Below, piece by piece: positions 30,026 through 50,853 of a DNA stretch of 64,000 nucleotides. Below the pieces are notes generated by a model. It made no database searches, was not told the DNA's origin, and worked only from the letters and a program-made list of their open reading frames with translations. Numbering within the stretch: the first letter of the stretch is position 1; every line of letters begins with the position of its first letter. The position numbers and the translations under genes were made by a program. Origin of the DNA: Limnohabitans curvus (lineage in GTDB: Bacteria; Pseudomonadota; Gammaproteobacteria; Burkholderiales; Burkholderiaceae_C); contig NZ_NESP01000002.1 in assembly GCF_003063475.1 (NCBI RefSeq), forward strand, positions 95,510-159,509, written 5' to 3'.

Positions 30026-30042
30026 AAACCAACATCATGCCC

Positions 30043-32189: not shown

Positions 32190-32290
32190 CAAAAGGCCGC
32201 ATATAGCGGCCCTTTCATTTGATGCATCTGGAAGAAATCTTCAGCTTGTTAGCGCCCAGAGCACATATCCCAATTTACTTCTACGAGACT
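32190..32290 (-). ncRNA. tracrRNA-like gene of the type II-C relic locus
   Basis: Read on the minus strand, an anti-repeat (32290-32248) contains AGTCT and then ATTGGGATATGTGCTCT (17 bases complementary to the crRNA form of the orphan 36-bp repeats). After GCTAAC and a small stem-loop region comes a strong hairpin, GGGCCGCTATATGCGGCC, followed by TTTT (32191-32214). An extended -10 motif TGCTATATT lies just upstream of the anti-repeat. Size and order (anti-repeat, stems, terminator) match tracrRNAs placed beside cas9. No expression evidence can be obtained from sequence alone. Confidence 0.72.
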
Positions 32291-32334
32291 AATATAGCAC
32301 AATAGACCACATTAATTAATACAAGGCCGCGGAT

Positions 32335-34138: not shown

Positions 34139-34174
34139 AGTTTAGACGATTGGGATATGTGCTCTAGCCGGAAC
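34139..34174 (-). CRISPR. orphan type II-C repeat 1
   Basis: A 36-bp unit that in crRNA orientation starts GTTCCGGCTAGAGCACATAT. It differs from repeat 2 at one base. It lies downstream of the cas9-cas2 relic, where a II-C array is expected. The Tn3-type element begins two bases after it. Confidence 0.85.
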
Positions 34175-34176
34175 TT
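34172..34176. repeat. 5-bp target duplication, left side of Tn3-type element
   Basis: AACTT, repeated at 50749-50753. Five bases is the rule for Tn3-family insertion. Confidence 0.9.
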
Positions 34177-34226
34177 GGCTAAATGTGCCCATCCCCTCGA
34201 AAAGGTAAAACGAGCGATTACTCCTA
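34177..34226 (+). repeat. left terminal inverted repeat of the 16.6-kb element
   Basis: Starts GGCTAAATGTGCCCATCCCC. It is the exact reverse complement of 50699-50748. A diverged third copy lies at 45759. Confidence 0.95.
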
Positions 34227-34242
34227 AAAACAACCCGAGGAG

Positions 34243-35090
34243 TCATGAGGAGCTAAGGCGCAATTGTTGTTGTTCGGAAATAACTTGATAACCCATCGCT
34301 CGGTAACCCCGCTGTCGCTTTTCCCACATCCTGTAGAGTTGAGGATGATCCGGTTCAACGTAATCGTAAATCAAGATGTCGCTCTTGTTTGCCTGGTCAC
34401 GATGTAGCCGTCCAACGTATTGCTGTAGCGTTCCGGCCCATGAGATCGGCAGCGTCAGAATAAGCGTGTCCAACGGTGCATGATCGAAACCCTCGCCGAC
34501 CAGTTGTGCGCTGGCCAACAATATGTGCGGGGCGTCCTGCGGTAAATCCGCCAGTGCCTTGATGATGGTCTGGCGTTCCTTTGCCTTCATGCGCCCGTGC
34601 AACATGAAGCATGGGTAGCCGACATTCCCAATTGCGTGTGCAACAGGTCAAGGTGTTCCGTTCTCTTGGTCAGTAGCAGCACCTTGCGCCCGTTTTCCAG
34701 GGCATTGGTCGCGTCGGCGACGATGCGTGTATTTCGATCATTGTCCTCAGCAAATAGCCGAATAACCTCTTGGATACTGGCGTTCAGTGGAACAGACGGA
34801 GTCGGAAGAGGCTGGACCCGAACCAATAGCTGATCAGGGACGTGTGCCGGGCGTTTTGCAATATGCCTGACGGGACCTGACTGCATGAAGATGATTGGAT
34901 GATGCCCATTGCTGCGAACGGGTGTGGCGCTGAGCCCGAGAATGAAGCGTGCGCTGGCTTGCTTCAAAACTGCTTCGAATGTTTCTGCGGTTAGATGATG
35001 CGCCTCATCAATGATCACCTGTCCGTATTAGCTGAACAGTTCGGGCAAATTGTCGCGGCGCGCCAAGCTTTGAATAAGGGTGGCTCAAAA
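34243..35090 (-). pseudogene. superfamily II (DEAD/DEAH) helicase relic
   Basis: Two minus-strand frames together give the core of a helicase. 35040-34600 has the Walker B segment GQVIIDEAHHLTAETFEAVL and the motif LGLSATPVRSNG. 34605-34243 has the second helicase domain with ASAQLVGEGFDHAPLD and QQYVGRLHRDQANK. A frameshift lies near 34600 and an in-frame TAA near 35025 (LPELFS-stop-YGQ). The 5' part is missing where the CRISPR array begins. The sequence type resembles large helicases of the TOTE/restriction-like group, but this is only an impression. Probably a remnant of another defence or accessory gene. Confidence 0.8.
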
Positions 35091-35098
35091 AACGCACG

Positions 35099-36163
35099 GG
35101 CCTATCCCCGCATGCGCGGGGGAACCTGGTCTTGTCGCCGCAGTCGAAGAGCATTCAAGGGCCTATCCCCGCATGCGCGGGGGAACCGTGGCTTGTCAGC
35201 GGGTCAGTCCAGCGTGCGAAGGCCTATCCCCGCATGCGCGGGGGAACCCTGAAAGTCCAAACCCGCTCCGGCTCAATCTTGGGCCTATCCCCGCATGCGC
35301 GGGGGAACCACAGACATTCGGCGCGAACAGCTAAGAAAATGGGGCCTATCCCCGCATGCGCGGGGGAACCTTCCCCGATAGAGAGTCGCTGTTCTCCGCT
35401 GTGGGCCTATCCCCGCATGCGCGGGGGAACCGACTCCGCATGCAAATAAAACCAGTCGCCCCAGGGCCTATCCCCGCATGCGCGGGGGAACCCGTCACCC
35501 TTCTTCCAATGTTCTTCGAGCTATGGGCCTATCCCCGCATGCGCGGGGGAACCGAGGTTCGAAAAATGATTAGTCCAATCACGCAGGGCCTATCCCCGCA
35601 TGCGCGGGGGAACCCATCGAATTGCCTTGCGCTCGAAGTTGGTGAAGGGCCTATCCCCGCATGCGCGGGGGAACCATAAATCTTGCGCTTTGATCGGTGT
35701 CTCTTCTGGGCCTATCCCCGCATGCGCGGGGGAACCAGGCTTCTTCGATTTCTGGCCTGCAACTTCGTGGGCCTATCCCCGCATGCGCGGGGGAACCCTG
35801 CGACAAGAGAACAGGGCGCAGGCTTCTTCGGGCCTATCCCCGCATGCGCGGGGGAACCCCAAACAGGGCGAGCGGCTAACAACGGGACAGGGGCCTATCC
35901 CCGCATGCGCGGGGGAACCCTTCTAATTCAGTGGTACGGCTAGTGGGGGCAGGGCCTATCCCCGCATGCGCGGGGGAACCGCTGGATCGCACTTTTGCGC
36001 TCTGTTCTTAGCGGGCCTATCCCCGCATGCGCGGGGGAACCCGACGATGCGCTTTCGACACCAATTTGTCCTTGGGCCTATCCCCGCATGCGCGGGGGAA
36101 CCATAGGCTCATTGATCGAAGCGTGCATAAACGTGGGCCTATCCCCGCATGCGCGGGGGAACC
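35099..36163 (-). CRISPR. type I-E CRISPR array, 18 repeats and 17 spacers
   Basis: Eighteen identical 28-bp repeats start at 35099 and recur every 61 bp up to 36136. On the minus strand the repeat begins GGTTCCCCCGCGCATGCGGG and can fold on CCCCGCGCATGCGGGG. Spacers are 33 bp, or 32 bp if the base before the plus-strand repeat is counted as repeat (G in all but one unit, A at 35220). cas2 and the leader lie at the high-coordinate end, so the newest spacers are near 36163. No repeat, even at the trailer end, is degenerate. Spacers 13 and 14 (numbered from 35099) match this chromosome. Spacers 11 and 12 overlap by 11 bases. Confidence 0.98.
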
Positions 36164-36231
36164 TCTTGATCATAAGTCCTTGATCCAGAAAAGAATTCCA
36201 ATGTTCACATCCAATTTTTAAAGAGCAAAAT
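36164..36231 (-). promoter_or_regulatory. CRISPR leader with IHF-like site
   Basis: The 68 bp between cas2 and the first leader-side repeat are AT-rich. The minus strand reads GATCAAGGACTTA at 36185-36173, which fits the IHF core ATCAANNNNTTR except for the preceding base. In E. coli IHF bends the type I-E leader at a similar place for spacer integration. Confidence 0.55.
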
Positions 36232-36528
36232 TCAACCGCCCGCACGTGCGATCCACATGCCATCTATTTCAATCAAAGTTTTGGCTGGCGTCCCCAAATT
36301 CGCCAAACCAACACCTCCCGTCGCCTCCCTTTCGCGCCAAATCATGACAATGCTGCCGCGTGGTTCTGTGGTGTGCCATTCCGTCATCACACGCCACACA
36401 CGCTCGCGCACGCCTTTGCTCATGCGTGGGCTGACATAGGTGCACGGCGCCACCTCCAACATCACAGATGCCAGGAAACCACGAAAGCGGTCGGCCACAT
36501 CACGTGTCACTATCGTCACCAGCGCCAT
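36232..36528 (-). CDS. cas2: type I-E CRISPR adaptation protein Cas2
   Basis: A 98-residue protein starting MALVTIVTRDVADRFRGFLA, the ferredoxin-like fold typical of I-E Cas2, with YVSPRMSKGVRERVW and GSIVMIWREREATGG. Cas2 bridges two Cas1 dimers during spacer integration. I chose ATG 36528 because it begins exactly at the conserved first strand; a further upstream in-frame start would add 14 unconserved residues. Even so, it overlaps the end of cas1 by 29 bases. It is the last cas gene before the leader. Confidence 0.93.
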   Translation of the reverse strand: MALVTIVTRDVADRFRGFLASVMLEVAPCTYVSPRMSKGVRERVWRVMTEWHTTEPRGSIVMIWREREATGGVGLANLGTPAKTLIEIDGMWIARAGG

Positions 36529-37393
36529 GCGCCACCTCGTCCATGCGTAATACTTGTTTGATGCGGTCAATCATGGATGGAATGACCGACTCTTTACGGA
36601 AAACACGGGCCGCTTCACGGCGCACAACGCGGTCCATAACTTCCCCAGATTTTTCGCTCTGCTTTACCGCCATGAATGCAATCGCAAGCGTGATTTGGTC
36701 ACGGTACAAGTCCGCAACATCCAGCACAAAAGCTTGTCCTGAATCTTCGTGAATAAAACCAAGCTGAGGAATCGCAGCAACGGCTTGAACGGCAATGGCC
36801 GCAGCGGCTTGCACCGCTGTCGCAGCGTGATTGATGGCTTGGTTGGGCAAATCATCTGCATCGGGGTTGGCACGGTCAAAGCGTCGGCCATGCCACTGAA
36901 TGCCAAACTTTTCAGCCATCAGACGATAGGTGGCCTTGACACGACTTCCCTCAATGCCTCGCAACGTGTCCAGATCTCGATGGGGCAACACTTCACCGAG
37001 CCGTAGCGCATACATGTGGCGTGCCACACTGATGCGCCGTCTTGGGCTGCCCCACAACTCTGCCTGCCTGCGCGCAACGTCTGACCTGTCGGGCATCATG
37101 GGCGGCGCGGTGTAGCTGCGCACACCATCCACACCCACTGCGGCCATCAAGGTGCCGTGTCTGGCCAGCAAACGCAATGCATCATGCGTGACACTGCTGC
37201 CCGGCCCAAGCAAGATCATGGACACGGCTTGATGGGGAATCTGGTCGAAGCTAGGCGTCAATGAGTCCTTGCCACGCGCAAAGTGCAGGCAGCCATTGAT
37301 GACGCACAACTCACCACGCTCCAGCCAAATCAAGCCATGCCTATCAGCATGCGGCACTCGCGCTGTTTCAAGACCTAAGCGCCCTTTCAACAT
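36500..37393 (-). CDS. cas1: type I-E CRISPR integrase Cas1
   Basis: A 297-residue Cas1 of the I-E type. The metal-binding residues are visible as the glutamate in LRGIEGSRVKATY (near 148), the histidine in LGFIHEDSGQAFVLDVAD (near 214) and the aspartates in that same block. Cas1 with Cas2 inserts new spacers at the leader end. Length and motifs are complete. It follows cas6e by 8 bases. Confidence 0.96.
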   Translation of the reverse strand: MLKGRLGLETARVPHADRHGLIWLERGELCVINGCLHFARGKDSLTPSFDQIPHQAVSMILLGPGSSVTHDALRLLARHGTLMAAVGVDGVRSYTAPPMMPDRSDVARRQAELWGSPRRRISVARHMYALRLGEVLPHRDLDTLRGIEGSRVKATYRLMAEKFGIQWHGRRFDRANPDADDLPNQAINHAATAVQAAAAIAVQAVAAIPQLGFIHEDSGQAFVLDVADLYRDQITLAIAFMAVKQSEKSGEVMDRVVRREAARVFRKESVIPSMIDRIKQVLRMDEVAHGAGDDSDT

Positions 37394-37401
37394 GGTCAGC
37401 T

Positions 37402-38130
37402 CTAGGTTGCGGCAGCGGGTTTGAGCAAGAGCATGCCAAACCCAAACGCACGGTGTCGACCAATGCCGCGTGCCACCAACGCGGCAAAAGCCGCACTGTC
37501 ACGCACACGCAGCACACCCGTGAACACCGCATCAGGGCCTTGCACTGGCCGTTTGGGACGAGCACCTTCGGCTTGTGGTGCAGCACTGCGCACCACAGCG
37601 CTGAGACTGAACTCGGTCATGCGCACTTCATGCAAATCGGCAACGTCTTCAAACTGCCGCTTGAGCCAATCGGCATAGACAGCCTCTCGCGATAACACCG
37701 CATCGGGCATGCGTTGCGCCGCCGACAAAAATGCATCCAGTTCTTTGTCTTCTTTGCGCACCACAGGTCGCACGCGTACTTCGAACGACAACAATTGCCC
37801 GGCCTTCCAGCTGGTGGGGAATGGGCGGATGAGCAATCCGGGGGACTGTGGCGTGGCATCCAAGCCTAACATGTCAGCCACTTCGGGCGTGGTCATCGCC
37901 ACCGCCAAACGGATGGCTTCGGCCTGTTTGGTGTAGGCCAACAAACCTTGGCCAGAGCGGAAACTGAATGGCTGCGGAGCCAAGTCTGCAAATGCGGCTC
38001 TGAGTACCGCATGAAACGCGTAGCCCAAGTCACCCTGCCCACGGTCTGGAATCAAACCCTGCCGCTGTGCCCATGGCAACAAACGGTCGAGCTTGGGGCG
38101 CAAATGAATCAAATGAAAGTCTTCGCTCAT
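37402..38130 (-). CDS. cas6e: crRNA-processing endoribonuclease Cas6e (CasE)
   Basis: A 242-residue RAMP protein. The C-terminal glycine-rich loop GIGRHRAFGFGMLLLKP is characteristic of CasE. The N-terminal part GDLGYAFHAVLRAAFAD holds a histidine that may be catalytic. It cuts the repeat RNA at the base of its hairpin and stays bound to the crRNA in Cascade. It overlaps cas5e by four bases (ATGA). Confidence 0.93.
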   Translation of the reverse strand: MSEDFHLIHLRPKLDRLLPWAQRQGLIPDRGQGDLGYAFHAVLRAAFADLAPQPFSFRSGQGLLAYTKQAEAIRLAVAMTTPEVADMLGLDATPQSPGLLIRPFPTSWKAGQLLSFEVRVRPVVRKEDKELDAFLSAAQRMPDAVLSREAVYADWLKRQFEDVADLHEVRMTEFSLSAVVRSAAPQAEGARPKRPVQGPDAVFTGVLRVRDSAAFAALVARGIGRHRAFGFGMLLLKPAAAT

Positions 38131-38891
38131 GCGGCCTCCTGCTCTGTGATGCTGTGCGGCTTTAGAAGCAACACGCCCTCGCGCACAGGCCGCCAGCCAC
38201 CATGCACACCGCTGGTCCAGTTACGTTCGTCGCACACGTCCAGCGTTCTGTCTTGCTGATCGGGCAAGCGGCCTTCGCCGTCTGGCCACTGGGCACGAAC
38301 GTTGTGCGATAAAGCGGGCACGGCCAACTGCAAGGCGCTCAAAATGTTGTCAGCCTCCATCAAACCTGCCATCAGGCGGTCTGTGGGCAAACAGTTCTTG
38401 CGACCCACAAACAACGGGCGAGCGGGCTTGTCCAGTGCAGTAGCCAAATCGTCCAAGGTGGGGGCCTCTTCGGCAGGCTTCAGGCGCAGGGCAACGAGGA
38501 CATTCATGTCTGCGTGGTAATGGCGGTAACGTTGGAGCGTCAAGCCCCTTCGGCCATCAGGCATAGGCGAATAGCTTGGGCTTTTTTTCCTGCCTTCTGC
38601 CTTGCCGTGCGTTGTCCACCCTGCGTCATCTTCATAGATCAATGCTGTTTGGTAATCCTCTAGCCTTTCTCCAGAAGCATCCAACCTTGCACCCATCACC
38701 ATCCGCTCTTGCAGGCGGTTGTGCAGGGTGTCATCACCGCGGTCCCAGCCCAAGGCGTTGGCCATCAACCCCGTCACCATCGACAAAGCTGGAAAGTCAC
38801 GGATGACACCGTAGTTATCGATCGTCTCGCCGCCAAACGCAATCAAAGGCGCTCGCAGTCGCAATAACAAATGCTGCACCATCTCAGGCAC
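38127..38891 (-). CDS. cas5e: Cascade subunit Cas5e (CasD)
   Basis: A 254-residue RAMP protein beginning with QHLLLRLRAPLIAFGGETID, a typical Cas5e opening, followed by FPALSMVTGLMANALGW. It caps the 5' handle of the crRNA. It overlaps the cas7e stop by 8 bases. Confidence 0.93.
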   Translation of the reverse strand: MPEMVQHLLLRLRAPLIAFGGETIDNYGVIRDFPALSMVTGLMANALGWDRGDDTLHNRLQERMVMGARLDASGERLEDYQTALIYEDDAGWTTHGKAEGRKKSPSYSPMPDGRRGLTLQRYRHYHADMNVLVALRLKPAEEAPTLDDLATALDKPARPLFVGRKNCLPTDRLMAGLMEADNILSALQLAVPALSHNVRAQWPDGEGRLPDQQDRTLDVCDERNWTSGVHGGWRPVREGVLLLKPHSITEQEAA

Positions 38892-40086
38892 CTTGCGCAG
38901 CGCCGCTGACGATGCGGTTTTGCACCCACTGCGTCAGGTTCGCCAATGGCAAACGCTCAGCACTCGGCATTTGGCAATCGTCTACACACAGAAAGCGGCG
39001 TTCGCTGGGTGCGCCATAGGCGGTGTCGAGACGTTGCAGTTCGTTGGCTAATTGACCGACTGCGCGTTCACGAATCTTGTCGCCATCGGTGTCCAATGCA
39101 TTTTGGAATGCGCCTGCGAGGCTGCGGGGTTGCCAATCACCTGCCTCGACCAACATCAGCTTGGCCCATTCAAAAGGGGCGGTACTGCCGCGCTTCGCAC
39201 CGGGGCTGACCGTGGCGATCAAGTGCAATAAATGGTGTACCACCTTGGCAGCTAACTCACGTTGGTCAGCACCGATTTTGAAGCAGTCTTCGATCTTCAC
39301 GCCTTCAAGGTTGGCCACTAATTGCGGCACGTCCACCACCACATAGCCGTAGTACAGGCCTGAGGCCAGTTCAGTGTCGAAGATGCCAGCAGAGCTTTGC
39401 TCACCCGATTCACGTAATAGATCGTCCACTACGGTGAAGTAGTCGTTTTCTACCTGTGCCTCGTGCACCGTGAAAGCATGTGTCACATACACCGCAGCAT
39501 CACGGCTGGTCAGCACATCCGATGTGACCATGCGGCCAAACAATGCAGACTCCAAGCCACTGCCATGCTTGATCATGGTTTCAATATTTTTCTTTTCGTC
39601 TTTTTCCTTCAACCATGCGGCTACCGCCTCTTTCAGGGCGTTGGTCTCGGTGTGCTCTTTTCCTAGCGCCACACATTTGCCGATGAGGTAATCGCGTTCG
39701 GCTTTGCCGAGCAAAACAGCCTGCCCTGTGCTCAATGCGTCTTCATCTTGCGGGCTTTTGCCAGCTTTGTCCAAAAGCCCAGCATTGCGCATGCCCTCAA
39801 TAGCGGCCTGCGCCAAGGCTTCATTCATGCCTTGTTCAATCATCATGTCGCGCATTTGTCGGGGCAGCTCACGCGAACGAATGGCCATTGGCACACCTAA
39901 GCTGGACAAAGAAAACACGTCATCCGCCACGCGCCAATGACGCTTCAGACACTGCGAAGAAATGCGAGTGCGAATGGCGTTGCCATAGGGCAAGCGCTTG
40001 GCCAAACCGGCATCGTCACGATTGAGAAGCGCAGCAGGGTAGTTGTGCAGGGTATGGATTTGAATGAAACGAGGCAATGTGGTCAT
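38884..40086 (-). CDS. cas7e: Cascade backbone subunit Cas7e (CasC/Cse4)
   Basis: A 400-residue protein with the opening RFIQIHTLHNYPAALLNRDD, LPYGNAIRTRISSQCLKRHW and the central DAAVYVTHAFTVHEAQVEND, all typical of Cse4/CasC. Six copies line the crRNA in Cascade. It is somewhat longer than the 363 residues of the E. coli protein, which I attribute to loop insertions. Confidence 0.95.
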   Translation of the reverse strand: MTTLPRFIQIHTLHNYPAALLNRDDAGLAKRLPYGNAIRTRISSQCLKRHWRVADDVFSLSSLGVPMAIRSRELPRQMRDMMIEQGMNEALAQAAIEGMRNAGLLDKAGKSPQDEDALSTGQAVLLGKAERDYLIGKCVALGKEHTETNALKEAVAAWLKEKDEKKNIETMIKHGSGLESALFGRMVTSDVLTSRDAAVYVTHAFTVHEAQVENDYFTVVDDLLRESGEQSSAGIFDTELASGLYYGYVVVDVPQLVANLEGVKIEDCFKIGADQRELAAKVVHHLLHLIATVSPGAKRGSTAPFEWAKLMLVEAGDWQPRSLAGAFQNALDTDGDKIRERAVGQLANELQRLDTAYGAPSERRFLCVDDCQMPSAERLPLANLTQWVQNRIVSGAAQGA

Positions 40087-40122
40087 GATGCGTGTTCTTT
40101 TTGAAATGGATAAAAAGTCTGT

Positions 40123-40677
40123 TTACTTGGTTCGAGCAATAGCGCTGAAATAATCGCCAGCAATGCGAAGGCGAAGCGTTTCCGCTATTTCTTTCTCAGC
40201 AACCTCTTGTGCATCGTTTTTGCGAATGAGTTCGCTCAGGGCGTACCAATTGGGCTTGACCTGCTTGCTGGCCAACAGACGTAGCAAACGAGGAACAATT
40301 TGCAAAAACGCATCGCCACGTGAGGCCAGTAATTTGGTAACACGTGGTTCCGACACGCCTGCTTCGGCCATCTGTTTTCCAAGCGAGCCCTTGCCATGCC
40401 CGGCCAATGCCATGCCGTGTGCAATCAACGCCCAGCGCCTCCATGTAGATGGTCGCCATGTGTCAGGTGACAAACCAGCATCAATCAGCGCACGCGACAA
40501 TGCTGCAATTTGGTGTGGACGTAATGCACCAGGATCAAGCCGCGCCAATGCGGCGCGCGTACCCGGATCGGCACGGTCGATGAACCCCACAAGCTTGCCA
40601 AGCGAAAAGTCACTAGCCGCTGCGGGTTCTGGCGCAGACGGCTGCACCTCGGATTCTGAAAGTTCAAGCATGGTCAT
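40123..40677 (-). CDS. cse2: Cascade small subunit Cse2 (CasB)
   Basis: A 184-residue, helix-rich protein. The block GTRAALARLDPGALRPHQI and a C-terminal part with NWYALSELIRKNDAQEV fit Cse2, which stabilises the displaced strand of the R-loop. It overlaps cse1 by 14 bases and precedes cas7e by 36 bases. Confidence 0.9.
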   Translation of the reverse strand: MTMLELSESEVQPSAPEPAAASDFSLGKLVGFIDRADPGTRAALARLDPGALRPHQIAALSRALIDAGLSPDTWRPSTWRRWALIAHGMALAGHGKGSLGKQMAEAGVSEPRVTKLLASRGDAFLQIVPRLLRLLASKQVKPNWYALSELIRKNDAQEVAEKEIAETLRLRIAGDYFSAIARTK

Positions 40678-42307
40678 GTGTCTCCTCTTCGGGTGATGTG
40701 GATATGGTTTGTTTATTGGATTTCAGGGCATGGGCAAGTGCAGGCAATTTGTTGCCGTGCATCATTGAGCGCAAACGCCCAAGTGCTGCGGATTGCGCGC
40801 GATACCGCAGTTGGCCACTGCGCGGGCCTGCGGTGAAAGCGGATTGCAGAATTGACTCAGCATGGTCAGCCAATGTCAACAACCATTGATGACGAACCAT
40901 CTCGCGGTCTTCAGCTTCAATTTCTTCGATCAGTTCAGGAAAGAACTGCGCATCGCATTGCGCCTCAAAAGGCTGTGCAAATAGACTGGCACGATCTTTC
41001 ACCGCGTCACTGGCATCTTTGTCTTTTCCACTTTCGTCCCTCGCACCATTTCCGAACAAAACTGTCAAAGCAGCCCAGAGCATTTTTCTCACCTCCGCAA
41101 TTGCAGCGATGCGGTCGTTCGCCAATTTGGCCAACTCGTCAGTGCTTTGGGTCAGGAATGCTTTGCGAACGGTTCTGGAAACAAGAATGCACCGCTCGTG
41201 GTAACCCTCGGTCTTGCCTCGTCCTCTGGCTACTCCTTGGGCAAGCAGATACACCCCCTCTGTGTCATCGCTGGGTAACCAGATTTGCGCCGTCGGCTTG
41301 GTGAACTTTTTTCCCAGCAAAAGCTCTGTCGCCAACTTGTAGTCAAAGCCACGGCTTCCAATCGTCAACGCTTTAGATGCTGCACCATCCACAGGCATCC
41401 ACGGGTCTCCTGTGATGCCGTTGAGTTCTTTAGCTGCAATTCTTTGCGCTTTGCTGCCTGTGACAAATGCATTGAGCTTGTCAGCGGTATTGATCAATCG
41501 AACACGCCGACAAATTTCTATATACCAAGGATCAAGACTTGCAAACGATAGGCTGTCGCTGCCATCCCATGAAATCAACCAAACCAAGGCGAAACCATTA
41601 ACGCTCGAAAACCCAAACGTCTCAACGAGTTCATCTCGGGTTCTAGCAACTGCAACAAGATCACGGCACCATCGCGCGCCCCAACTGCCACGTGGATGCA
41701 CACCGACACCACATCTGCTTGCGAAGCCTCCATTCATTCGCGAAGTGCCGTAGTTTCCAGCCCCCAAGAATCCTTCTTGGGTTTGCAGGCTAATTAATGC
41801 ATACACCCACTCTTCAGGGGTACTGTGCGACATTCGCGCCGCCTTCAAATCATGATTCTTTGAAGTCACCAGCATGTCTAGCTCGTCTGCGGCTACCAAG
41901 CAGTTTTTCCAGCTATTGATGCTTCTACTTGGCTCTGCGGCTTGCATAAAAGCAGGGCTGTTCACCGGACTTACCAAACACCAAGCGGCACCATCCGGAT
42001 CATCGGGCGTGAGAGCCAGCAACGCCGCACGCCACTCGACAGCAGTAGCAAATGGCTCTGCACGTTCAGATTGATGTAGAGCGATAGCAGCCAGCTGCAC
42101 CAAAAACGCATGCCATGGATGGCGTTGGTGGGGACGCAGCGCGGGGAAGTCACGCACCTGGTCTTGCGCCATCGCTACGAATAATTCAGGCAAGGTCGTT
42201 GCTACGCGCTCGCCCGTATCGGTTCGACGGTAATGCAGCCGCCGCTCATCAAGCAGATTGCCAAACAGCGTTTGCGCAACATCAGATCCCCTGATCTTTG
42301 TGGTCAT
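40664..42307 (-). CDS. cse1: Cascade large subunit Cse1 (Cas8e, CasA)
   Basis: A 547-residue protein with LPELFVAMAQDQVRDFPALR near the N-terminus, WSVP-like region replaced by HPRGSWGARWCRDLVAVART, and a C-terminal helical bundle. Cse1 recognises the PAM and recruits Cas3. It overlaps the cas3 stop by four bases (ATGA). Its position and size fit the type I-E operon. The PAM loop cannot be identified by eye. Confidence 0.93.
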   Translation of the reverse strand: MTTKIRGSDVAQTLFGNLLDERRLHYRRTDTGERVATTLPELFVAMAQDQVRDFPALRPHQRHPWHAFLVQLAAIALHQSERAEPFATAVEWRAALLALTPDDPDGAAWCLVSPVNSPAFMQAAEPSRSINSWKNCLVAADELDMLVTSKNHDLKAARMSHSTPEEWVYALISLQTQEGFLGAGNYGTSRMNGGFASRCGVGVHPRGSWGARWCRDLVAVARTRDELVETFGFSSVNGFALVWLISWDGSDSLSFASLDPWYIEICRRVRLINTADKLNAFVTGSKAQRIAAKELNGITGDPWMPVDGAASKALTIGSRGFDYKLATELLLGKKFTKPTAQIWLPSDDTEGVYLLAQGVARGRGKTEGYHERCILVSRTVRKAFLTQSTDELAKLANDRIAAIAEVRKMLWAALTVLFGNGARDESGKDKDASDAVKDRASLFAQPFEAQCDAQFFPELIEEIEAEDREMVRHQWLLTLADHAESILQSAFTAGPRSGQLRYRAQSAALGRLRSMMHGNKLPALAHALKSNKQTISTSPEEETHDHA

Positions 42308-44952
42308 GGATTTGCTCCGTTCATGTCGTCGGTGATTCGTTCCAGCCCCAGGCGGCTGTAGCGGTAGGCGCTTGCGCCCAAGATGAAGATGAAGCTGCCA
42401 TCAATGCCGATAGCCTTAACCATTGGCTGTGTGTCCGGTGACTCACCTTTGGGCCATAAGTGATGTCGCATGGGTAAGTGCTGTATCACTTGCCCAAATG
42501 GCCCCGACTGCGGTGGATCAAAGGTCAATATGTAATCGGCAGCGCCTAGGCGACTGGTTACCTTTTGCTCTCCATCCAAAAACACCAGTGCGTTACCTGC
42601 TTCATCTTCAAAACGCTTGTCGAAGGGCAGGCGATGAATTGCTGCCACGCCTTTTTTTGCTTGCAATTCGCCTTCTACGCTTTGCCCATGCGCTGCCCAA
42701 TCCGAACCCAGTTCTTTTTCAATTTCAGTCAACACTTCGGGATGCGTCGCCCGCTCCACCAACTCCCGGTTGTCCTGAGGAATGGTGTGACTTGCTGCAC
42801 CATTGATGAGTCGCCGAGTGGCCTCCAAAATACGCAAATCCATGTAGATACCCCCGCCGTTGTGAAATCTGCCTAAACCATGACGTGATTTCTTGAGGCA
42901 ACTTTCAAGGTTGGGACCCGTAGGCACCAGCACCACGGTTTGGGCTTGTTTGTAGTTTTCGGGGCGCTCTTCAGGCTTTCGGACATGTCGGTGTAATCGC
43001 CCCACACGTTGCAGCAACACATCCATGGGGCACAGGTCGGTTATCAACAAGTCCGCATCGATGTCTAAGCTTTGTTCAAGCGTTTGTGTGCCCACCACGA
43101 TGCAGGCTTGCAATGGCTTGGTGCGTTGCTTGCCAATTTGCTGCTCAACCGCTTTATCCAACAAAGGGCGGTCTTCTCGGCTGTAGCGGCTGTGGTGCAC
43201 CGTCGCTATGCCATTGAGGTTGAACAAGGCATCTTGCAAACCGTTTTGCTGCGCCATGCTTTCGATGGCCCGAAAAGTGGCTAATGCCGTGGGCACGGTG
43301 TTGCGAATGACCAGCACTTTGGCCCCTTGCTTCGCAGCTTCTATGGCCAAGGCGGCGATGACTTCTGGGCTTTCTATGCAGTCTTTGACTTGCCAATGCA
43401 CGCGCTTGCTTAGCCCTGAGTCAGGCAATCTGTCAGTGTTTTCGCCATCGGTAATTGCGGGATAAGGCAAGTTGATCGCTTGTGCCAATGTAGGCATGGG
43501 GACATTGGGCGATAGGAGCTGCTGGTAGCGGTGGCGGGCGCTTGAGCCAAGCGTGGCCGACAACAACAAGGCATGGCCACCTGCATTCAAATGTGCTTTG
43601 AGCAAATGCGCCAACAGTGTGGCCATGTAGGCGTCGGAAGCATGAACCTCATCGACCACCAACAGGCTGCGTGAGAGCAAACTGTGGCGCATGTGTGCAT
43701 GCCTCACTTGCAATGCGCCCAGCAGCGCTTGGTCAATGGTGCCGACCGCCAATGGCGCAGCCAAAAATCGTTTACTCGATTCCGCAGCCCAACGGCTGTG
43801 CGCTTTTTGTTCATCGGGTTTGTCTGCCCAGAGCACTTCAAAGTCGGGAAGTTTTTGGACGCTTTGGCCATCGGCGCATTCGTAGCCTGTCAATGCTCGC
43901 ACCACTAGGGGCGGCTCTTGCCCTGTGTCCCGCCACATATTCGAGGCAAATTGCCGTGTCCGTTCGTAGAGTTGTGTTGCTGCCACGCGTGTGGGCAATG
44001 CGAAGTACAAGCCATCCACTTTCCCTGCTTGGAATAGCTTTGCGAAGCGCCATAGAGCGGCTTCTGTTTTGCCGCTACCCGTTTCTGACTCCAGGATCAG
44101 TAGCGGCCCCAAATCGGGTTCAGCCATCTTCGATTGAATGGGGCGTGGCGAAGGCACGTTGAATGCGGATGAGAAATCGGGTGCACTGGGCAGTACGTTT
44201 CTCCACTGCTTGGAATCGAAGCCAATTGTTTGAATCGCCTCACGGGCACGTTGCCATACCCATTGGTTGCGATCTTCATCAGCTTCGGCATAATGGAAGA
44301 AATCGGTATCCGATCCCAGCCAGTCGGCAAATTGCACCAAGCCGGCAAACAAATGAGCGAACTCTGCGCTGTCAGGTAAGGCTGGTCCAGCTTCAAATGC
44401 TGAAGGGAACCATTTCTTTAAACATTGGCCAATGTCTCTCAATGTGGCCTGCGGGTCATAAACCAATTGACCGTCACAAACCACCGATCGCCAAATTTTC
44501 CGATCTATCAGACAGGACTCTTCCACTGGGCGTCCGTGATGGCTGATGGATGCACGCCACAGACTCAAACATGCAGTACCCCATGCGCCCATTTCATCTA
44601 CTGGCAACTGGGCGATCAGCTTCTCATCCCCGAAAATACACAGGGCTTCATTGGTATGCCCTGCTGATGCAGGCCAGCCTTGTGGTGTAGATCGATCCGT
44701 TTGCGACCAACGCTTGGCTTGAAAACCTGCATTCGCCTTACCTACATCGTGTAGAAAAGCCAACACAGTCAAACGCATCATGTCAATATCAGTTAACTCC
44801 CGCCCAGCCGTTCGAGTCAAAGCGCTGCGCGCACCATTTGTTTGCACGGCCGCCGAAAAACAGGCGGCCACATCGAGCATATGTGCTGTCAAAGGGTGAC
44901 TTTCCCCTTGCTTCTTTAACTTACCCCAAGCCGTCGACAAATAACAAACCAT
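42304..44952 (-). CDS. cas3: type I CRISPR nuclease-helicase Cas3
   Basis: An 882-residue HD-helicase fusion. The HD nuclease has LTAHMLDVA (near residue 22) and VLAFLHDVGKANAGFQAKRW (near 69). The helicase has Walker A ESETGSGKTEAALWR, DEVH in LLVVDEVHASDAYMATLL, LLLSATLGSS and QRVGRLHRHVRKPEE. All key motifs are kept, so interference looks possible. It is the first cas gene; about 200 bp of AT-rich DNA (44953-45150) upstream should contain the promoter. Confidence 0.96.
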   Translation of the reverse strand: MVCYLSTAWGKLKKQGESHPLTAHMLDVAACFSAAVQTNGARSALTRTAGRELTDIDMMRLTVLAFLHDVGKANAGFQAKRWSQTDRSTPQGWPASAGHTNEALCIFGDEKLIAQLPVDEMGAWGTACLSLWRASISHHGRPVEESCLIDRKIWRSVVCDGQLVYDPQATLRDIGQCLKKWFPSAFEAGPALPDSAEFAHLFAGLVQFADWLGSDTDFFHYAEADEDRNQWVWQRAREAIQTIGFDSKQWRNVLPSAPDFSSAFNVPSPRPIQSKMAEPDLGPLLILESETGSGKTEAALWRFAKLFQAGKVDGLYFALPTRVAATQLYERTRQFASNMWRDTGQEPPLVVRALTGYECADGQSVQKLPDFEVLWADKPDEQKAHSRWAAESSKRFLAAPLAVGTIDQALLGALQVRHAHMRHSLLSRSLLVVDEVHASDAYMATLLAHLLKAHLNAGGHALLLSATLGSSARHRYQQLLSPNVPMPTLAQAINLPYPAITDGENTDRLPDSGLSKRVHWQVKDCIESPEVIAALAIEAAKQGAKVLVIRNTVPTALATFRAIESMAQQNGLQDALFNLNGIATVHHSRYSREDRPLLDKAVEQQIGKQRTKPLQACIVVGTQTLEQSLDIDADLLITDLCPMDVLLQRVGRLHRHVRKPEERPENYKQAQTVVLVPTGPNLESCLKKSRHGLGRFHNGGGIYMDLRILEATRRLINGAASHTIPQDNRELVERATHPEVLTEIEKELGSDWAAHGQSVEGELQAKKGVAAIHRLPFDKRFEDEAGNALVFLDGEQKVTSRLGAADYILTFDPPQSGPFGQVIQHLPMRHHLWPKGESPDTQPMVKAIGIDGSFIFILGASAYRYSRLGLERITDDMNGANP

Positions 44953-45216
44953 TACGCTCAGACATGTAGTTTTTTCTATTTATATTAGAAATAAATTATC
45001 ATTCAAATGTATTATACAAGATGCTCTTATATTGAGTCACAGCGCACGACTCTGTTTCCATGGGCTAACTCAACGTACGCGTGGATCAATGTTCTGCAAT
45101 ATGACTAACCGGACGCTTAAAGCAATGACATTAGAGTTAACAACTCTTTGGCATTGATGAGTGAATGAAACTGAATCCCCCATTTCTCTACGAGCGGTCG
45201 GGCAGGTGATGCTGGA
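44953..45216 (-). promoter_or_regulatory. AT-rich upstream region of the cas operon
   Basis: No gene is visible. The segment 44965-45040 is AT-rich (TTTTCTATTTATATTAGAAA) and lies directly upstream of cas3. AT-rich regions here are silenced by H-NS in enterobacteria; whether that applies is unknown. Confidence 0.45.
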
Positions 45217-45758
45217 GGAGGCGTCTCAGAAAACGGGAGAAATCGTACGCTATAACCAGATTGAGGCCACCGGCCCGTTAGCTCTGCACTTACCTGCGGT
45301 CGCGGATTTCACCCAGGCGGTTGAAGAATACGGAACCGGCCAGCGCGTTGTGCGGTTCGCCCTTGCTCAGCACGGCATGCACGCGGCGACGCAACTCAAC
45401 CCTTTGCATCCATTCCGTGATGAACAACGTGCGCTCGGGTTCTGATGAACCAGGCGTTCGATGTGTTCGCGAGCATGTGGCGCGAGTTCGGCTTGACGGG
45501 CGACTGCGCAGCCAAGCCTGCCAAGGTCATCTTGCCGTTGCATCGGCGTTTGTGCAGCTCGTCGAGGTGTCGGCGCTGCGCCGGTGGCGCAGCGAATCGA
45601 GGACGTTGCTGGTCTCCACGATGTCCTTGTCGGTCTGCAAGGCCAGCTCGGTCGTGGCATGAACAGCTTGACGATAGTGCGTCAGGCCGAACGGCTCCAT
45701 GCCAGATACGTGAGCAGATCAAGAGGTGTTCACGTCGGGCTTTCTCCCGCTCTGTATA
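45217..45758 (-). pseudogene. Tn3-family tnpA deletion relic with degenerate end
   Basis: A 38-bp sequence like the Tn3 end (GTCTCAGAAAACGG, 45217-45254) is followed by short pieces similar to the two extremes of the nested tnpA gene. 45290-45440 resembles 47365-47500 (gene 3' part), and 45445-45720 resembles 49330-49750 (5' part). The middle is deleted and frames are broken. It ends exactly at the third copy of the large element's terminal repeat (45759). Confidence 0.75.
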
Positions 45759-47061
45759 GGCTAAATGTGCCCAACCCCTCGAAAAGGTAAAAGGAGCTAA
45801 CTTTCCCTCTAAAGGATGAGCGATTTTCAGTCGGCAAAAGGTCCCCTTGCCCAGGCTGAGTGGCATTGCTCCAAAAAACTGAGTCGGCATACTGTGTAGC
45901 CAAGGCATCTAGATCAATGCCTTGCTCATCATCGCTGAACTCGAACGACCCGAACATGTTCACGTGCTGCCACGCCACCGGCGACATACCTTGGATGAAC
46001 GCGATGGCATCCAGATCCCCTGCGACCACCTTCTGTTCGTACACCTTGGACAGTAAGGCGGTGTTGTAGTAGATGACCGCGTTGGCGATCAGCCGCGCAC
46101 AATCGTTCCAAACCTGCTGCTCGGTTTCCGTCTGTACTTTGAATTTACCTCCATTGATGAATGACACTGCCCGACGGAAACGGTGATAGGCCTCGCCCCG
46201 ATTGAGTGCTTTTTGTACGCTTTGACGCAGCTCGACATCGTCAATGAAATCAAGGATGTAGATGGTACGCAGGATGTTGTCCAATTCCCACAGGGCCTTT
46301 TTGGTGCTGTTTTGTCTGGCATAGCTGCTAAGTTTGCGCACCACCGTGGCCTGCGTCGTGTCCTTTTGTGCAAGGGAGGCCATGATGCGCTGGATATTGG
46401 GCCACTCGCTGATGATCAGATCCACGTTGACCCTATTGCTTGGTCGAATCAGCATGTCGGCAGGATACTGACTTGGTAGTTCGAACCCGACCAATGATGC
46501 AGTCTTCTTTTGCAAAGTCTTGTATCGCGGTGCAAAGCTGTAGCCGTGGACAAACAGGCTCCAAAAATTGACTTGGTTGGTTCCATGCGTATCGGTCGAG
46601 TGCCGCGTTGGCTTGATGTCCAACGTGTTGTTGTAGAGCAGATCAAATACGAAATGGCTCTCATGTTCGTGGGTGCCAATAATCTTGGCGTTGATGGGCA
46701 CATGGTTGGCCACCACGGTGCAAGCGCTAACCCCCTTGTCCCAGCCGAAATACTTGGGCGAATAGCGGGAGTTGAAGGTGTTGATCTGGGTTTCAAACCG
46801 CTGACCATCGCTGCTGGAATGCAACTCATCACGAATGTTGAAGAGTTTGAAGGCCGGCAGCGCGGCCGTGGCATTGCTGATGGCATCATTGGCCGCATGC
46901 ACAGTTTCCGGCCGCAAATAACTGCGGGCGGTGGCGATCAGGGATGCGTGGTTCAAGCCCGAGACTTCGGCCATTTTGCCCAGTCCCATGTTGGTGCCGT
47001 AGGCCACCACACAAGCTAGGATCTCGCGCAGGTCCGGAGGGTTCTTAACGGAGCGATTCAA
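45730..47061 (-). CDS. truncated Tn3-family transposase (C-terminal 443 residues)
   Basis: The protein has the Tn3 DDE core: HSSSDGQRFETQ with the first Asp, STDTHGTNQVNFW with the second, and ALNRGEAYHRFRRAV with the glutamate. Full-length enzymes have about 990 residues, so the N-terminal DNA-binding half is missing. The cut is at the nested Tn3 unit starting at 47074. It is different in sequence from the nested tnpA. A diverged copy of the large element's terminal repeat (45759-45797) overlaps its 3' end, so this was probably the transposase of that repeat family. It is likely inactive. Confidence 0.85.
   Translation of the reverse strand: MNRSVKNPPDLREILACVVAYGTNMGLGKMAEVSGLNHASLIATARSYLRPETVHAANDAISNATAALPAFKLFNIRDELHSSSDGQRFETQINTFNSRYSPKYFGWDKGVSACTVVANHVPINAKIIGTHEHESHFVFDLLYNNTLDIKPTRHSTDTHGTNQVNFWSLFVHGYSFAPRYKTLQKKTASLVGFELPSQYPADMLIRPSNRVNVDLIISEWPNIQRIMASLAQKDTTQATVVRKLSSYARQNSTKKALWELDNILRTIYILDFIDDVELRQSVQKALNRGEAYHRFRRAVSFINGGKFKVQTETEQQVWNDCARLIANAVIYYNTALLSKVYEQKVVAGDLDAIAFIQGMSPVAWQHVNMFGSFEFSDDEQGIDLDALATQYADSVFWSNATQPGQGDLLPTENRSSFRGKVSSFYLFEGLGTFSLYRAGESPT
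45759..45797 (+). repeat. third, diverged copy of the large element's terminal repeat
   Basis: GGCTAAATGTGCCCAACCCC and following bases match 34177 onward, with one mismatch in the first 34 positions and then divergence. It has the same orientation as the left end. Confidence 0.88.
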
Positions 47062-47106
47062 AATATGCTCGAAGGGGTCGTCTCAGAAAACGGAAAAAAT
47101 CGTACG

Positions 47107-50075
47107 CTAAGCCGGTTGCAGGGGCCGTAGTGGCCTGAACTTGCCTGCACCGATCTTGGCGCTGCAGCGCCAGAGGTAATCGCCGGTCAGGTTGATGTGC
47201 TCCCAGCCGAGCGGCGACAGGTACCGCAACAGCGCGTCATCGACGGCATGGCCGTTGCTGCGCAGTCCGTGTGCTGCCCGCTCCAGATAGACCGTGTTCC
47301 ATAGAACGATGGCCGCCGTCACCAGGTTGAGGCCGCTGGCCCGGTAGCGCTGCGGCTCGAAACTGCGGTCGCGGATTTCACCCAGGCGGTTGAAGAACAC
47401 GGCGCGGGCCAGCGCATTGCGCGCCTCGCCCTTGTTCAGCCCGGCATGCACGCGGCGGCGCAGTTCGACGCTTTGCAGCCAGTCCAGAATGAACAGCGTG
47501 CGCTCGATGCGGCCCAGCTCGCGCAGGGCGACGGCAAGGCCGTTCTGGCGCGGGTAGCTGCCGAGCTTCCTGAGCATCAGTGAGGCCGTCACCGTGCCTT
47601 GCTTGATCGAGGTGGCCAACCGCAGAATTTCATCCCAATGGGTGCGGACGTGCTTGATGTTGATCGTGCCGCCGATCATCGGTTTCAATGCGTCATAGAC
47701 CACATCGCCCTTCGGAATGTAGAGCTTGGTGTCGCCCAGGTCGCGGATGCGCGGCGCGAAGCGGAATCCCAGGAGGTGCATCAGGGCGAAGACGTGATCG
47801 GTGAAGCCCGCCGTGTCGGTGTAGTGCTCCTCGATCCGCAGGTCGGACTCGTGGTACAGCAGGCCGTCGAGCACATAGGTCGAGTCGCGCACGCCGACGT
47901 TCACTACCTTGGTGTGGAACGGCGCATACTGGTCGGAGATGTGGGTGTAGAACGCCCGGCCAGGGCTGCTACCGTATTTCGGGTTGATGTGGCCGGTGCT
48001 CTCCGCCTGGCTGCCGGTGCGGAAGTTCTGGCCGTCCGACGATGACGTGGTGCCGTCACCCCAATGCCCGGCGAAGGGATGCTGGAACTGGGCGTTTACC
48101 AGTTCGGCCAGCGCCGTCGAATAGGTTTCGTCGCGGGTATGCCAGGCTTGCAGCCAGGCGAGCTTGGCGTAGGTCGTGCCGGGGCAGGACTCCGCCATCT
48201 TGGTCAGGCCCAGGTTGATCACGTCAGCTAGGATCGTGGTCAGCAGCAGGTTCTTGTCCTTGGCCAGGTCACCCGACTTCAGGTGCGCGAAGTGCCGGGT
48301 GAAGCCCGTCCATTCGTCGACCTCCAGCAGCAATTCGGTGATCTTGACGTGCGGCAGGATCATAGCGGTCTGGTCGATCAGGGCTTGCGCGGTATCGGGC
48401 ACCGCCGCATCGAGCGGTGTGATTTTCAGGCCCGACTCCGTGATGATGGCGTCCGGCAGCTCGTTGGCCTGTGCCATGCGGTTGACGGTGGCGAGCTGCG
48501 TTTCCAGCAGCGTCAGCCGGTCATGCAGGTACTGGTCGCAGTCGGTGGCCACGGCCAGCGGCAATTCACTGGTTTGTTTGAGGCTGGCGAATTTCGCGGG
48601 CGGCACCAGGTAGTCCTCGAAGTCCTTGAACTGGCGTGAGCCTTGTACCCAAATGTCGCCGGAGCGCAGCGCGTTCTTCATCTGCGACAGGGCACACAGT
48701 TCGTAGTAACGCCGGTCGATGCCGGTGTCGGTCATGACCAGTTTCTGCCAGCGCGGCTTGATAAAGTCGGTCGGCGCGTCCGCAGGCACCTTGCGGGCGT
48801 TGTCGGTGTTCATCCCGCGCAGCACCTCGATGGCATCAAGCACCTCCTTGGCTGCGGGCGCAGCCCGCAGCTTGAGTACGGCGAGAAATTCTGGTGCGTA
48901 CCGGCGCAGCGTGGCGTAGCTCTCGCCGATGCGGTGCAGAAAATCGAAGTCCTCGAGCTGCGCGAGCTTCTGCGCCTCGGTCACGCTCTCGGCGAAGGCA
49001 TCCCAGGACATGACGGCTTCGATGGCGGCGAACGGATCGCGGCCCGCTTGCTTGGCCTCGATCAGCGCCTGGCCTATACGGCCGAACAGCCGCACCTTGG
49101 TGTTGATCGCCTTGCCGGATGCCTGGAACTGCTGCTGGTGCCTCTTCTTGGCATCATTGAACAGCTTGCCCAGGATGCGGTCATGCAGGTCGATGACTTC
49201 GTCGGTGACGGTGGCCATGCCCTCGATGGCGAGCGCCACCAGCGTTGCGTAACGCCGCTGCGTCTCGAACTTGGCCAGGTCGGCAGGCGTCATTTGGCCG
49301 CCCTCCCGGGCGATCTTGAGCAACCGGTTTTGATGAACCAGGCGCTCGATGCCGGAAGGCAGGTCGAGTGCCTGCCACGCTCTCAGGCGTTCGATGTGTT
49401 CCAGCATGTGGCGCGAATTCGGCTTGACGGGCGACTGGCGTAGCCAGGCCAGCCAGGTCGTTTTGCCGTTGTCCCGACGCTTGAGCAGGTCATCGAGGCG
49501 ACGACGATGTGCGTCCGTCAGCGGTTCGGCCAAGGCGTCGTAGATGCGACGCGGTTTGCGCGGGTAATCGCCTCGGCGCAGACGCGCTCCACAACATCAA
49601 GCGTCGGCAAGATGATGTGCCGGTGGCGTAGCGAGTCGAGGACGCTGCTGGCCAGCACCATGCCCTTGTCGGTCTGCAAGGCCAGCTCGGTCGTGGCATG
49701 AACAGCCTGCCGATAGTGCGCCAGGCCGAACGGCTCCATGCCCAGATACGTGCGCAGTTCAAGCAGGTGCTCACGCCGGGTTTCCTCTCGCTCGGCATAC
49801 TGTGGCCAGCATGCAGGGTCGAGCCGCAGTTGCCGTGCTATCCATTGCAGCAGGGGCATCGGCACGGCAGCATCGGGCAGCAGGCCCTGACCGGGGAAGC
49901 GCAGTAAGCACAACTGCACCGCGACACCCAAGCGGTTGGCTTCGCCGCGCCGCTGTCGGATCAGTGACAGGTCAGGTTCGCTGAACGTGTAGTGCCGGAT
50001 GAGTTCGTCTTGGGTATCGGGTAACGCCAGCAGGCTTGTCCGCTCGGCGGCGGACAGAATGGAGCGGCGGGGCAT
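47107..50075 (-). pseudogene. tnpA: Tn3-family transposase TnpA, single frameshift
   Basis: The N-terminal 170 residues ([20 protein letters not shown] onward) are read from 50075. The remaining 800 or so are read in a second frame down to 47107, with [34 protein letters not shown] and [17 protein letters not shown] holding the D-D-E residues. The shift is at about 49550, where one extra base seems to be present after an AACCGC. Length of the repaired protein (about 985) is normal. Unless the shift is a sequencing error, the transposase is inactive. Confidence 0.9.
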
Positions 50076-50077
50076 GG

Positions 50078-50367
50078 TTAGTCGTCCGTTCTCAGGTATT
50101 GGTAGAGGGTTTCGCGGCTAATGCCGAACTCGCGGGCGAGCTTGGCCTTCTGCTCGCCGGCAGCGACTCGTCGGCGTAGTTCGACGACCCGCTGCCGGCG
50201 AGCAGCCGTTCCAACTCGGGCCGCTGGGTGTCCTTGCCCGACGCCTTGTCGGTGAACAGCCGTTCCACCAAAACATGCTCACGTTGCCGTTCCGGGTTCT
50301 GGTCAAAGCTGCTGACGCGGACGTAACCGATGCGCTGACCTTGCAAAGAATAGCAACAATGCCGCAC
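50078..50367 (-). pseudogene. tnpR: serine resolvase TnpR with internal deletion
   Basis: The N-terminal part GQRIGYVRVSSFDQNPERQR has the catalytic serine and leads to DKASGKDTQRPELERLL. The C-terminal HTH part [20 protein letters not shown] is in another frame, so about 90 residues of the middle are missing. It overlaps the tnpA start. Confidence 0.85.
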
Positions 50368-50396
50368 TCCAACAGCATCGTCAGAATTTGAATGCG

Positions 50397-50612
50397 ATGA
50401 TTAATTTGGCCAATATCACTTTCGGAAAGACGATTCCAGATCAATGCCGACGTGAGATTTCTCATCTCTATAACGCGGGCAGGTATACACAGGCCCAACT
50501 GGCTGCTGCGTACGGCATCAGCCAATCTGCCGTGAGCAAGATCATCAACGGCCAAATCCCCGCACCCATCGGCGGCGTGAACCCTCAAGGTATTGCGGCT
50601 AACGCAGCATAA
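50397..50612 (+). CDS. small HTH protein in nested Tn3 unit
   Basis: A 71-residue protein with a clear helix-turn-helix, YTQAQLAAAYGISQSAVSKI. It lies between tnpR and the right 38-bp end, on the opposite strand. Start ATG 50397; a TTG three codons upstream is also in frame. It could regulate the transposon or be the remains of a larger gene. I do not recognise a specific family. Confidence 0.6.
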   Translation: MINLANITFGKTIPDQCRREISHLYNAGRYTQAQLAAAYGISQSAVSKIINGQIPAPIGGVNPQGIAANAA

Positions 50613-50698
50613 CCAGGATCGGCACGGGCAAGTTCAGGTCACTACGGCCCCTGCAACCGGCTTAACGTACGATTTTTTCCGTTTTCTGAGACGCCCCC

Positions 50699-50748
50699 TA
50701 GGAGTAATCGCTCGTTTTACCTTTTCGAGGGGATGGGCACATTTAGCC
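50699..50748 (-). repeat. right terminal inverted repeat of the 16.6-kb element
   Basis: Exact reverse complement of 34177-34226. Confidence 0.95.
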
Positions 50749-50753
50749 AACTT
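50749..50753. repeat. 5-bp target duplication, right side
   Basis: AACTT, same as 34172-34176. Confidence 0.9.
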
Positions 50754-50781
50754 GAAGTAAGCAAACAACTCTCTTTTGTCA

Positions 50782-50817
50782 AGTCTAGACGATTGGGATA
50801 TGTGCTCTAGCCGGAAC
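50782..50817 (-). CRISPR. orphan type II-C repeat 2 with flanking old spacers
   Basis: A 36-bp repeat. The 30 bases before it (50752-50781) are the old spacer that followed repeat 1 before the Tn3-type insertion. The next 30 bases (50818-50847) may be another old spacer, but no repeat follows it. Confidence 0.85.
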
Positions 50818-50853
50818 CGCCAAGCGAATACCGACGAAGATTTCAGCCGATCT

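Follow-up and report, generated by a model that had tools for sequence, protein, structure and literature searches.

A complete type I-E CRISPR-Cas locus enclosed by a Tn3-family unit within a Cas9-type CRISPR array of Limnohabitans curvus

The last 64 kb of the 159,509-base contig NZ_NESP01000002.1 of Limnohabitans curvus (hereafter the window; the genome comprises 2 contigs, 3.03 Mb) contain a Tn3-type unit of 16,572 bp (34177-50748). The unit holds the eight full-length cas genes and the 17 spacers of a type I-E CRISPR-Cas system (clustered regularly interspaced short palindromic repeats and CRISPR-associated genes). We conclude that a mosaic Tn3-family unit probably took up the complete I-E locus and then transposed as one piece into the Cas9-type array of a plasmid. 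An original prediction had already placed a complete I-E locus inside a Tn3-type unit. This placement is borne out: transposition marks enclose the whole locus, excision of the unit restores the period of the invaded array, and the array of a sister plasmid is uninterrupted.

The unit ends in perfect 50-bp inverted repeats at 34177..34226 (left, forward strand) and 50699..50748 (right, reverse strand), and the pentamer AACTT stands directly outside both, at 34172..34176 and 50749..50753 (both forward strand), exactly as predicted. The probability that two random 5-mers of the backbone are equal is 0.00116. In the 14 copies of this end that were compared (family A; three are from the window), all begin GGCTAAA and the preceding bases vary, so the end begins there. 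The inverted match of the outer ends extends to 52 bp, with the two extra bases contributed by the duplication itself. The marks of the Tn3 family are found together: inverted repeats at both ends (50 bp and perfect here, where the family calls for at least about 38 bp), a 5-bp target duplication (AACTT, whose excision gives back the array period), and a DDE transposase fitting these ends, present as a fragment in the unit (tnpA-A) and as an open 1037-aa tnpA elsewhere. In another genome (G019, L032 4095-4138), a family A end is likewise preceded by AACTT in a different context, a possible insertion preference.

The site of insertion allows the duplication to be checked independently. The unit's 41-bp flanking repeats are CRISPR repeats of another, Cas9-type system, with 36-nt repeats at 34139..34174 and 50782..50817 (both forward strand). 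The order in the window is left repeat, TT, unit, AACTT, remainder of the interrupted spacer (50754-50781) and next repeat. When the unit and one AACTT are taken out, the sequence reads repeat (36), spacer (30), repeat (36), with a period of 66 nt as in the array of plasmid pTEGF4, and the insertion point falls after nucleotide 38 of the 66-nt repeat-spacer unit. Because excision gives back the period of the invaded array, the duplication is independently proven, and this reconstruction of the empty site is independent of any relative.

The original prediction had proposed to look for empty sites, and relatives whose arrays lack the unit do exist. At the same place, pTEGF4 (Limnohabitans sp. 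TEGF004, NZ_AP027057.1) carries full-length cas9, cas1 and cas2 and an uninterrupted array whose 29 regular repeats, 36 nt each, are separated by 30-nt spacers (31 nt in one case); two further genomes (G033 and G017) have related arrays without the unit. One further repeat of pTEGF4 lies beyond a PemK/MazF toxin-antitoxin pair. In the window, the PemK/MazF toxin gene and its partner (50818-51614) also lie between two Cas9-type repeats, at the same place as on pTEGF4, and the pair seems to have entered the Cas9-type array before the two plasmids split. A solitary imperfect Cas9-type repeat occurs in G015, a further member of the genus (L033 8356-8391), with no second copy within the 15-kb stretch.

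We take the contig to be a plasmid related to pTEGF4 because of its similarity to pTEGF4, including the region of the replication initiation gene. In a search with the first 25 kb of the window, pTEGF4 was the sole match among 72,556 records, covering 80% of this stretch at 96.6% identity. Immediately outside the window, on its upstream side, a piece of the contig shows 89% identity to the pTEGF4 region that carries the replication initiation gene. To the right of the unit, identity to pTEGF4 is 97.0% over 9551 bp, and the two aligned pieces directly to its left are 90-93% identical. G073, of the same genus, has the locus coordinates of pTEGF4 and is probably one and the same record.

The locus at this site is the same as on pTEGF4, in repeat and period as well as in position; the two differ in that pTEGF4 has full-length cas9-cas1-cas2 and a whole array, while the window has a cas9-cas2 fusion and an array interrupted by the unit. 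Type II-C systems have cas9, cas1 and cas2 and no fourth cas gene; this gene set with 36-nt repeats is found on pTEGF4 and is broken in the window. The fusion (32335..34071, forward strand, 578 aa) joins Cas9 residues 1-515 to Cas2 residues 42-108, with 95.7% and 95.5% identity to the respective parts of the pTEGF4 proteins. A stretch of 2571 bp present in pTEGF4 (L026 12676-15246) is gone from the window, a deletion that came before or after the insertion of the unit. By its gene content, then, the Cas9 system of the window plasmid is wrecked by this 2.57-kb deletion, and no second Cas9_a match was found elsewhere in the genome. A possible anti-repeat of a Cas9-type trans-activating CRISPR RNA lies upstream of cas9 (32220..32310, strand not assigned); it is the best anti-repeat match there, though weak, and the stretch is kept in both the window plasmid and pTEGF4. 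An Rfam scan of window 27000-52000 gave no match.

Within the unit, all cas genes lie on the reverse strand, and all eight frames are open, full-length and matched by their NCBIfam models: cas2e (36232..36570, TIGR01873), cas1e (36500..37393, TIGR03638 above cut-off), cas6e (37402..38130, TIGR01907), cas5e (38127..38891, TIGR01868), cas7e (38884..40086, TIGR01869), cse2 (40123..40677, TIGR02548), cse1, or cas8e (40664..42307, TIGR02547 positions 1-496 of 504, below the curated cut-off), and cas3, for the HD nuclease-helicase (42304..44952). Close relatives of cse1 carry the source name CasA. The array (35099..36163, reverse strand) consists of 17 spacers, each 33 nt long, between 18 repeats whose 28-nt cores are identical; its 61-nt period and palindromic GC-rich repeat are those of type I-E, as is the full set of cas3, cse1, cse2, cas7e, cas5e, cas6e, cas1e and cas2e. 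The predicted inventory of cas genes and spacers between the ends was accurate.

The nuclease competence of this system, part of the original prediction, is putative. Cas3 scores below the cut-off of the full-length helicase/endonuclease model and above those of both domain models (TIGR01587 and TIGR01596), and alignment to a solved structure (4q2c) shows that its HD, GSGKT and DEVH motifs are kept. In Cas1, alignment to solved structures shows that the E, H and D positions, which we take to be catalytic, are also kept. Intact motifs, as read from the sequence, are consistent with a competent nuclease, but the persistence of exact self-targets suggests that interference is off.

These self-targets are matched by two spacers. 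Spacer 4 (35920..35952, reverse strand) matches 33/33 at window 9717-9749 and at contig 93163-93195, and spacer 5 (35859..35891, reverse strand) matches 33/33 at window 8558-8590 and at pTEGF4 27927-27959. The host plasmid thus has three target sites in all, besides which the array has no further match in its own genome (E up to 0.05). As three exact targets persist on the same molecule, interference is probably off, and the I-E system is most likely silent or blocked now in this cell. The exact match of two spacers to the host plasmid means that adaptation most likely once worked in contact with this plasmid lineage. The sequence of spacer 4 is altered on pTEGF4, so this spacer points to the lineage of the window plasmid and not to pTEGF4. 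Both spacer 4 sites share a 131-bp repeat (84.7% identity), which presumably resembles an insertion-sequence end. Acquisition of spacers 4 and 5 after landing would be the simpler source, since naive acquisition is strongly biased toward the resident plasmid according to PMC6990116; a plasmid of this family could also have supplied them before the unit landed.

At the targets, the trinucleotides whose last base is the first of the spacer are ACC, ACC and AAC. The adjacent spacers 6 and 7 (window 35737-35830) overlap by 11 nt and therefore come from neighbouring places on one strand of one target; the overlap implies ATC. With these four observations only, AxC is a candidate motif for the I-E system. 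A search of plasmids with the array gave 22 records, one at 99% or more that is, by the organism list, probably pTEGF4; the remaining 21 match at 60-80% and were taken as repeats of other arrays. Among phage records, the array gave 31 records with E of about 4 only, and viral contigs contained no match to six exact 22-24 nt patterns from spacers 1, 2, 3, 9 and 11 and the overlap of spacers 6 and 7, a set that covers seven of the 17 spacers. Self-matching is also seen on pTEGF4 (L026, L056, L057), where four of the plasmid's own Cas9-type spacers match pTEGF4 itself (spacer 1 at 30/30, spacer 5 at 29/30, spacers 4 and 17 at about 90%); the target site of Cas9-type spacer 4 is inside a pilus ATPase gene.

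Comparisons with other genomes place the ends of the unit in a Tn3 subfamily that has a transposase of its own. An exact 39-nt family A end lies about 30 bp behind the open 1037-aa tnpA in a Polaromonas metagenome-assembled genome (L006), the one locus at which the genome collection contains it, and no cas match was found in the 8 kb of that locus. Allowing up to 3 mismatches over 34 nt, 6 of 399 family genomes contain the end (own genome included), and a reversed control gave 0 matches; in an earlier BLAST search, two of 61 had matched, own included. In G269 (L047), two family A ends stand 14.06 kb apart and enclose a toxin-antitoxin-like pair (HVO_A0114, TumE), a tyrosine recombinase, a 1070-aa tnpA, and NnrS, FixG-like and hemerythrin genes.

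A further relative, G279 (L050), explains what lies at the left end of the unit. There, a family A end is followed by an intact gene for an 817-aa TOTE-type primase-helicase (AEP-TOTE, ResIII, Helicase_C) and then by a TumE-like toxin-antitoxin-like pair; this placement of the primase-helicase (L050 3475-5928) directly behind a Tn3-family end may mark a cargo slot for conflict systems. In the window, a 0.83-kb 3' remnant of such a gene (34243..35075, reverse strand) is kept just inside the left end, with 84% DNA identity to L050 3481-4308, and the homology ends at 35075, which leaves 24 bp to the outermost repeat core of the I-E array. Since the homology to G279 adjoins the end and stops at 35075, the left end is native and the I-E locus has truncated the conflict-system gene.

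On its right side, the unit is composed of several transposon pieces. The tnpA-A fragment (45730..47061, reverse strand) encodes a C-terminal part of 443 aa that matches DDE_Tnp_Tn3 (model positions 584-953 of 954) and has about 96% amino acid identity over 409 residues to the tnpA of L047 and L053. Beside its 3' end lies an internal copy of the family A end (45759..45797, forward strand, 2 mismatches in 39). A second Tn3, of family B, is nested at 47074..50698 (reverse strand), with its tnpA in two frames (808 + 185 aa), a resolvase fragment (91 aa), its own ends and unequal 5-bp flanks. A decayed remnant of a family B element (45216..45758, strand not assigned; direct repeats D3, D4, D6, D8 and D9) retains one end and scattered tnpA pieces. 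By its make-up, the unit is a mosaic, with a truncated matching transposase and a second Tn3 nested inside. The two Tn3-type transposase genes of the original prediction are thus present, but they come from two different Tn3s, one as a C-terminal fragment and the other split in two frames. A full tnpA with its own resolution system is lacking, and we class the unit as a defective Tn3-family member; among the frames scanned, no tyrosine recombinase like that of L047 was found, only the 91-aa resolvase fragment of the nested element.

Together, these features suggest the following course of events. A mosaic Tn3-family transposon would have taken the complete I-E locus into its left cargo position, where the sister element has the TOTE-type primase-helicase. 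The cas locus would already have been aboard when the unit, by ordinary Tn3 transposition with a 5-bp duplication, moved as one 16.6-kb piece into the resident Cas9-type array. Movement by tnpA-A, or by a relative in trans, may have taken place before the nested Tn3 removed most of tnpA-A; most simply, the unit either moved while tnpA-A still had its front part or was moved in trans by a related transposase.

Several observations weigh against this course. The sister element in G269 (L047) has unequal outer 5-bp flanks. The end occurs in direct repeat (34177 and 45759), so that two family A copies could recombine and bring in the cas segment. In its present state the unit is not autonomous, as tnpA-A lacks its N-terminal half and no other family A end was found elsewhere in this genome. 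Finally, independent insertions with different 5-bp duplications, which the original prediction had named as support for mobilisation, did not turn up: a single insertion is known, and no second cas locus between family A ends was found among the 399 family genomes and 15 other I-E loci.

An alternative is that a family A transposon landed first with other cargo and that the I-E locus was added afterwards, either through recombination or aided by the nested Tn3 B. The I-E locus does cut the helicase gene between 35075 and 35099, and across the cas operon lie the Tn3 B remnant (45216-45758) and the internal end copy at 45759, so that the cargo appears to have been put together by secondary events whose order is undated. 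However, no precursor insertion is present in pTEGF4, G033 or G017, and the outer ends agree over all 50 bp, whereas other family members differ from them (and the two ends of L047 differ from one another beyond the core). We consider late entry of the cas locus unlikely. That the region is a mosaic of several transposon pieces might also suggest chance or an assembly artefact, with the cas locus an ordinary plasmid defence island and the repeats unrelated to it. This is very improbable, as the identical 50-bp ends, the duplication and the restored 66-nt period agree independently, the same end stands beside its own tnpA in another organism, and the genome is rated 100% complete in 2 contigs.

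A complete CRISPR system within a transposon, with spacers that match its own replicon, could finally be read as a CRISPR-associated transposon built on Tn3, in which the I-E system guides insertion. The two targets in the window (8558-8590 and 9717-9749) are, however, about 24-26 kb from the insertion at 34176 and the third is outside the window, so that no fixed short distance is seen, and Cas3 with its motifs is present together with Cas1-Cas2. We regard this as scarcely credible and rejected RNA-guided insertion on the grounds that Cas3 and Cas1-Cas2 are present and the known protospacers (those of spacers 4 and 5 of 17) are far from the insertion. In ten frames examined at the ends of the unit and next to them, no Tn7-type transposition gene was found. 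Transposition of the unit with the I-E locus aboard remains our preferred explanation.

The distribution of I-E systems in related genomes was used as a control. I-E is patchy in the genus (3 of 84 genomes; a weak extra match in G062, E 4e-4, was not counted apart), and it was found in 16 of 399 sampled genomes of the family, own included (E up to 1e-40). The nearest I-E system in the genus is that of G062, with Cas proteins 73-94% identical; DNA similarity between G062 and the window spans array to cas3 only. The control set of 15 loci comprised 13 of the 15 other family loci (G216 and G416 were dropped because of contig ends) plus G062 and G088. Stretches of up to 20 kb were fetched, five loci were cut by contig ends (L029, L063, L065, L070 and L074), and a flanking repeat farther away may have escaped notice; for G062, two additional flanks (L028 and L076) were scanned for transposases only. 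In these stretches, none of the 15 loci had a family A or B transposase match. Inverted repeats of 25-28 bp at 86-88% were present at 4 of the 15, and equal 5-bp flanks at none. Conversely, no cas match was found in the stretches fetched around other family A ends (ten loci). Plasmids yielded five records of Cse1 at 36.9-41.7% identity, and viral contigs contained neither the family A end pattern nor Cse1. In metagenomes, Cse1 96% identical to that of the window was represented by 9 member sequences, with one contig of 3910 bases.

The unit shares features with several known systems. With TIME-COMP and composite Tn3 elements with passengers, as described in PMC4133298, it shares the 5-bp duplication, Tn3-type ends and foreign DNA captured between two end copies; it differs in that its cargo is a whole adaptive immune system and the unit is not bounded by two 262-bp TIMEs. 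Two miniature Tn3-derived end elements are absent, as the left end runs into a transposon gene remnant and the right end into the nested Tn3. CRISPR-associated Tn7-like transposons also carry CRISPR-Cas aboard a transposon, but those systems, according to PMC6990116, are without nuclease activity and adaptation genes and use CRISPR RNA to pick the target. The window unit has cas3, cas1 and cas2 and gives no sign of guided insertion, and the known protospacers of spacers 4 and 5 are not at a short fixed distance. Its cas3-cse1-cse2-cas7e-cas5e-cas6e-cas1-cas2 order and 61-nt period are those of type I-E CRISPR-Cas; the locus differs in lying in a transposon and in having two exact spacers against its carrier plasmid. 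Plasmid-borne CRISPR-Cas systems, as described in PMC9071438, are likewise CRISPR loci of plasmids that have plasmid-directed spacers. That paper reports that the arrays encoded on plasmids are mostly directed at other plasmids and that adaptation genes are kept in 36% of plasmid systems. The window system differs in being on a transposon within the plasmid, in having kept its adaptation genes and in matching the carrier itself.

Each part of this arrangement is of a known kind and, as far as we can tell, the combination is new. In titles and abstract openings (preprints and most subscription papers were outside this search), neither a complete CRISPR-Cas system as Tn3-family cargo nor a transposon-borne CRISPR inserted in another CRISPR array was found among the matches listed. 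For class 1 CRISPR-Cas, the passage of entire systems from one genome to another is mostly inferred. In this case the marks of transposition surround all eight cas genes together with the array, and since the target of the unit is periodic, they can be verified base by base. The locus further offers a natural example in which one type of CRISPR physically interrupts another. As a mobile CRISPR whose spacers match its own carrier exactly, it also makes the self-tolerance of plasmid-borne CRISPR testable.

A wider and more tentative interpretation is that this Tn3 subfamily keeps a slot near its left end for conflict-system cargo and can carry complete adaptive immune systems from replicon to replicon, that the mobile I-E system, by inserting into the resident Cas9-type array, displaced the Cas9 system, and that spacers 4 and 5 are the record of a conflict with plasmids of this family. 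If so, an immune system would have jumped onto its own target, or would have equipped the plasmid to fight its sisters and itself been tolerated in cis.

Elsewhere in the window, a 4.2-kb insertion relative to pTEGF4 (27676-31930), with an IS66-family transposase, lies upstream of the cas9 remnant. Inside one frame of this insertion is a 234-bp tandem duplication (31140-31631).

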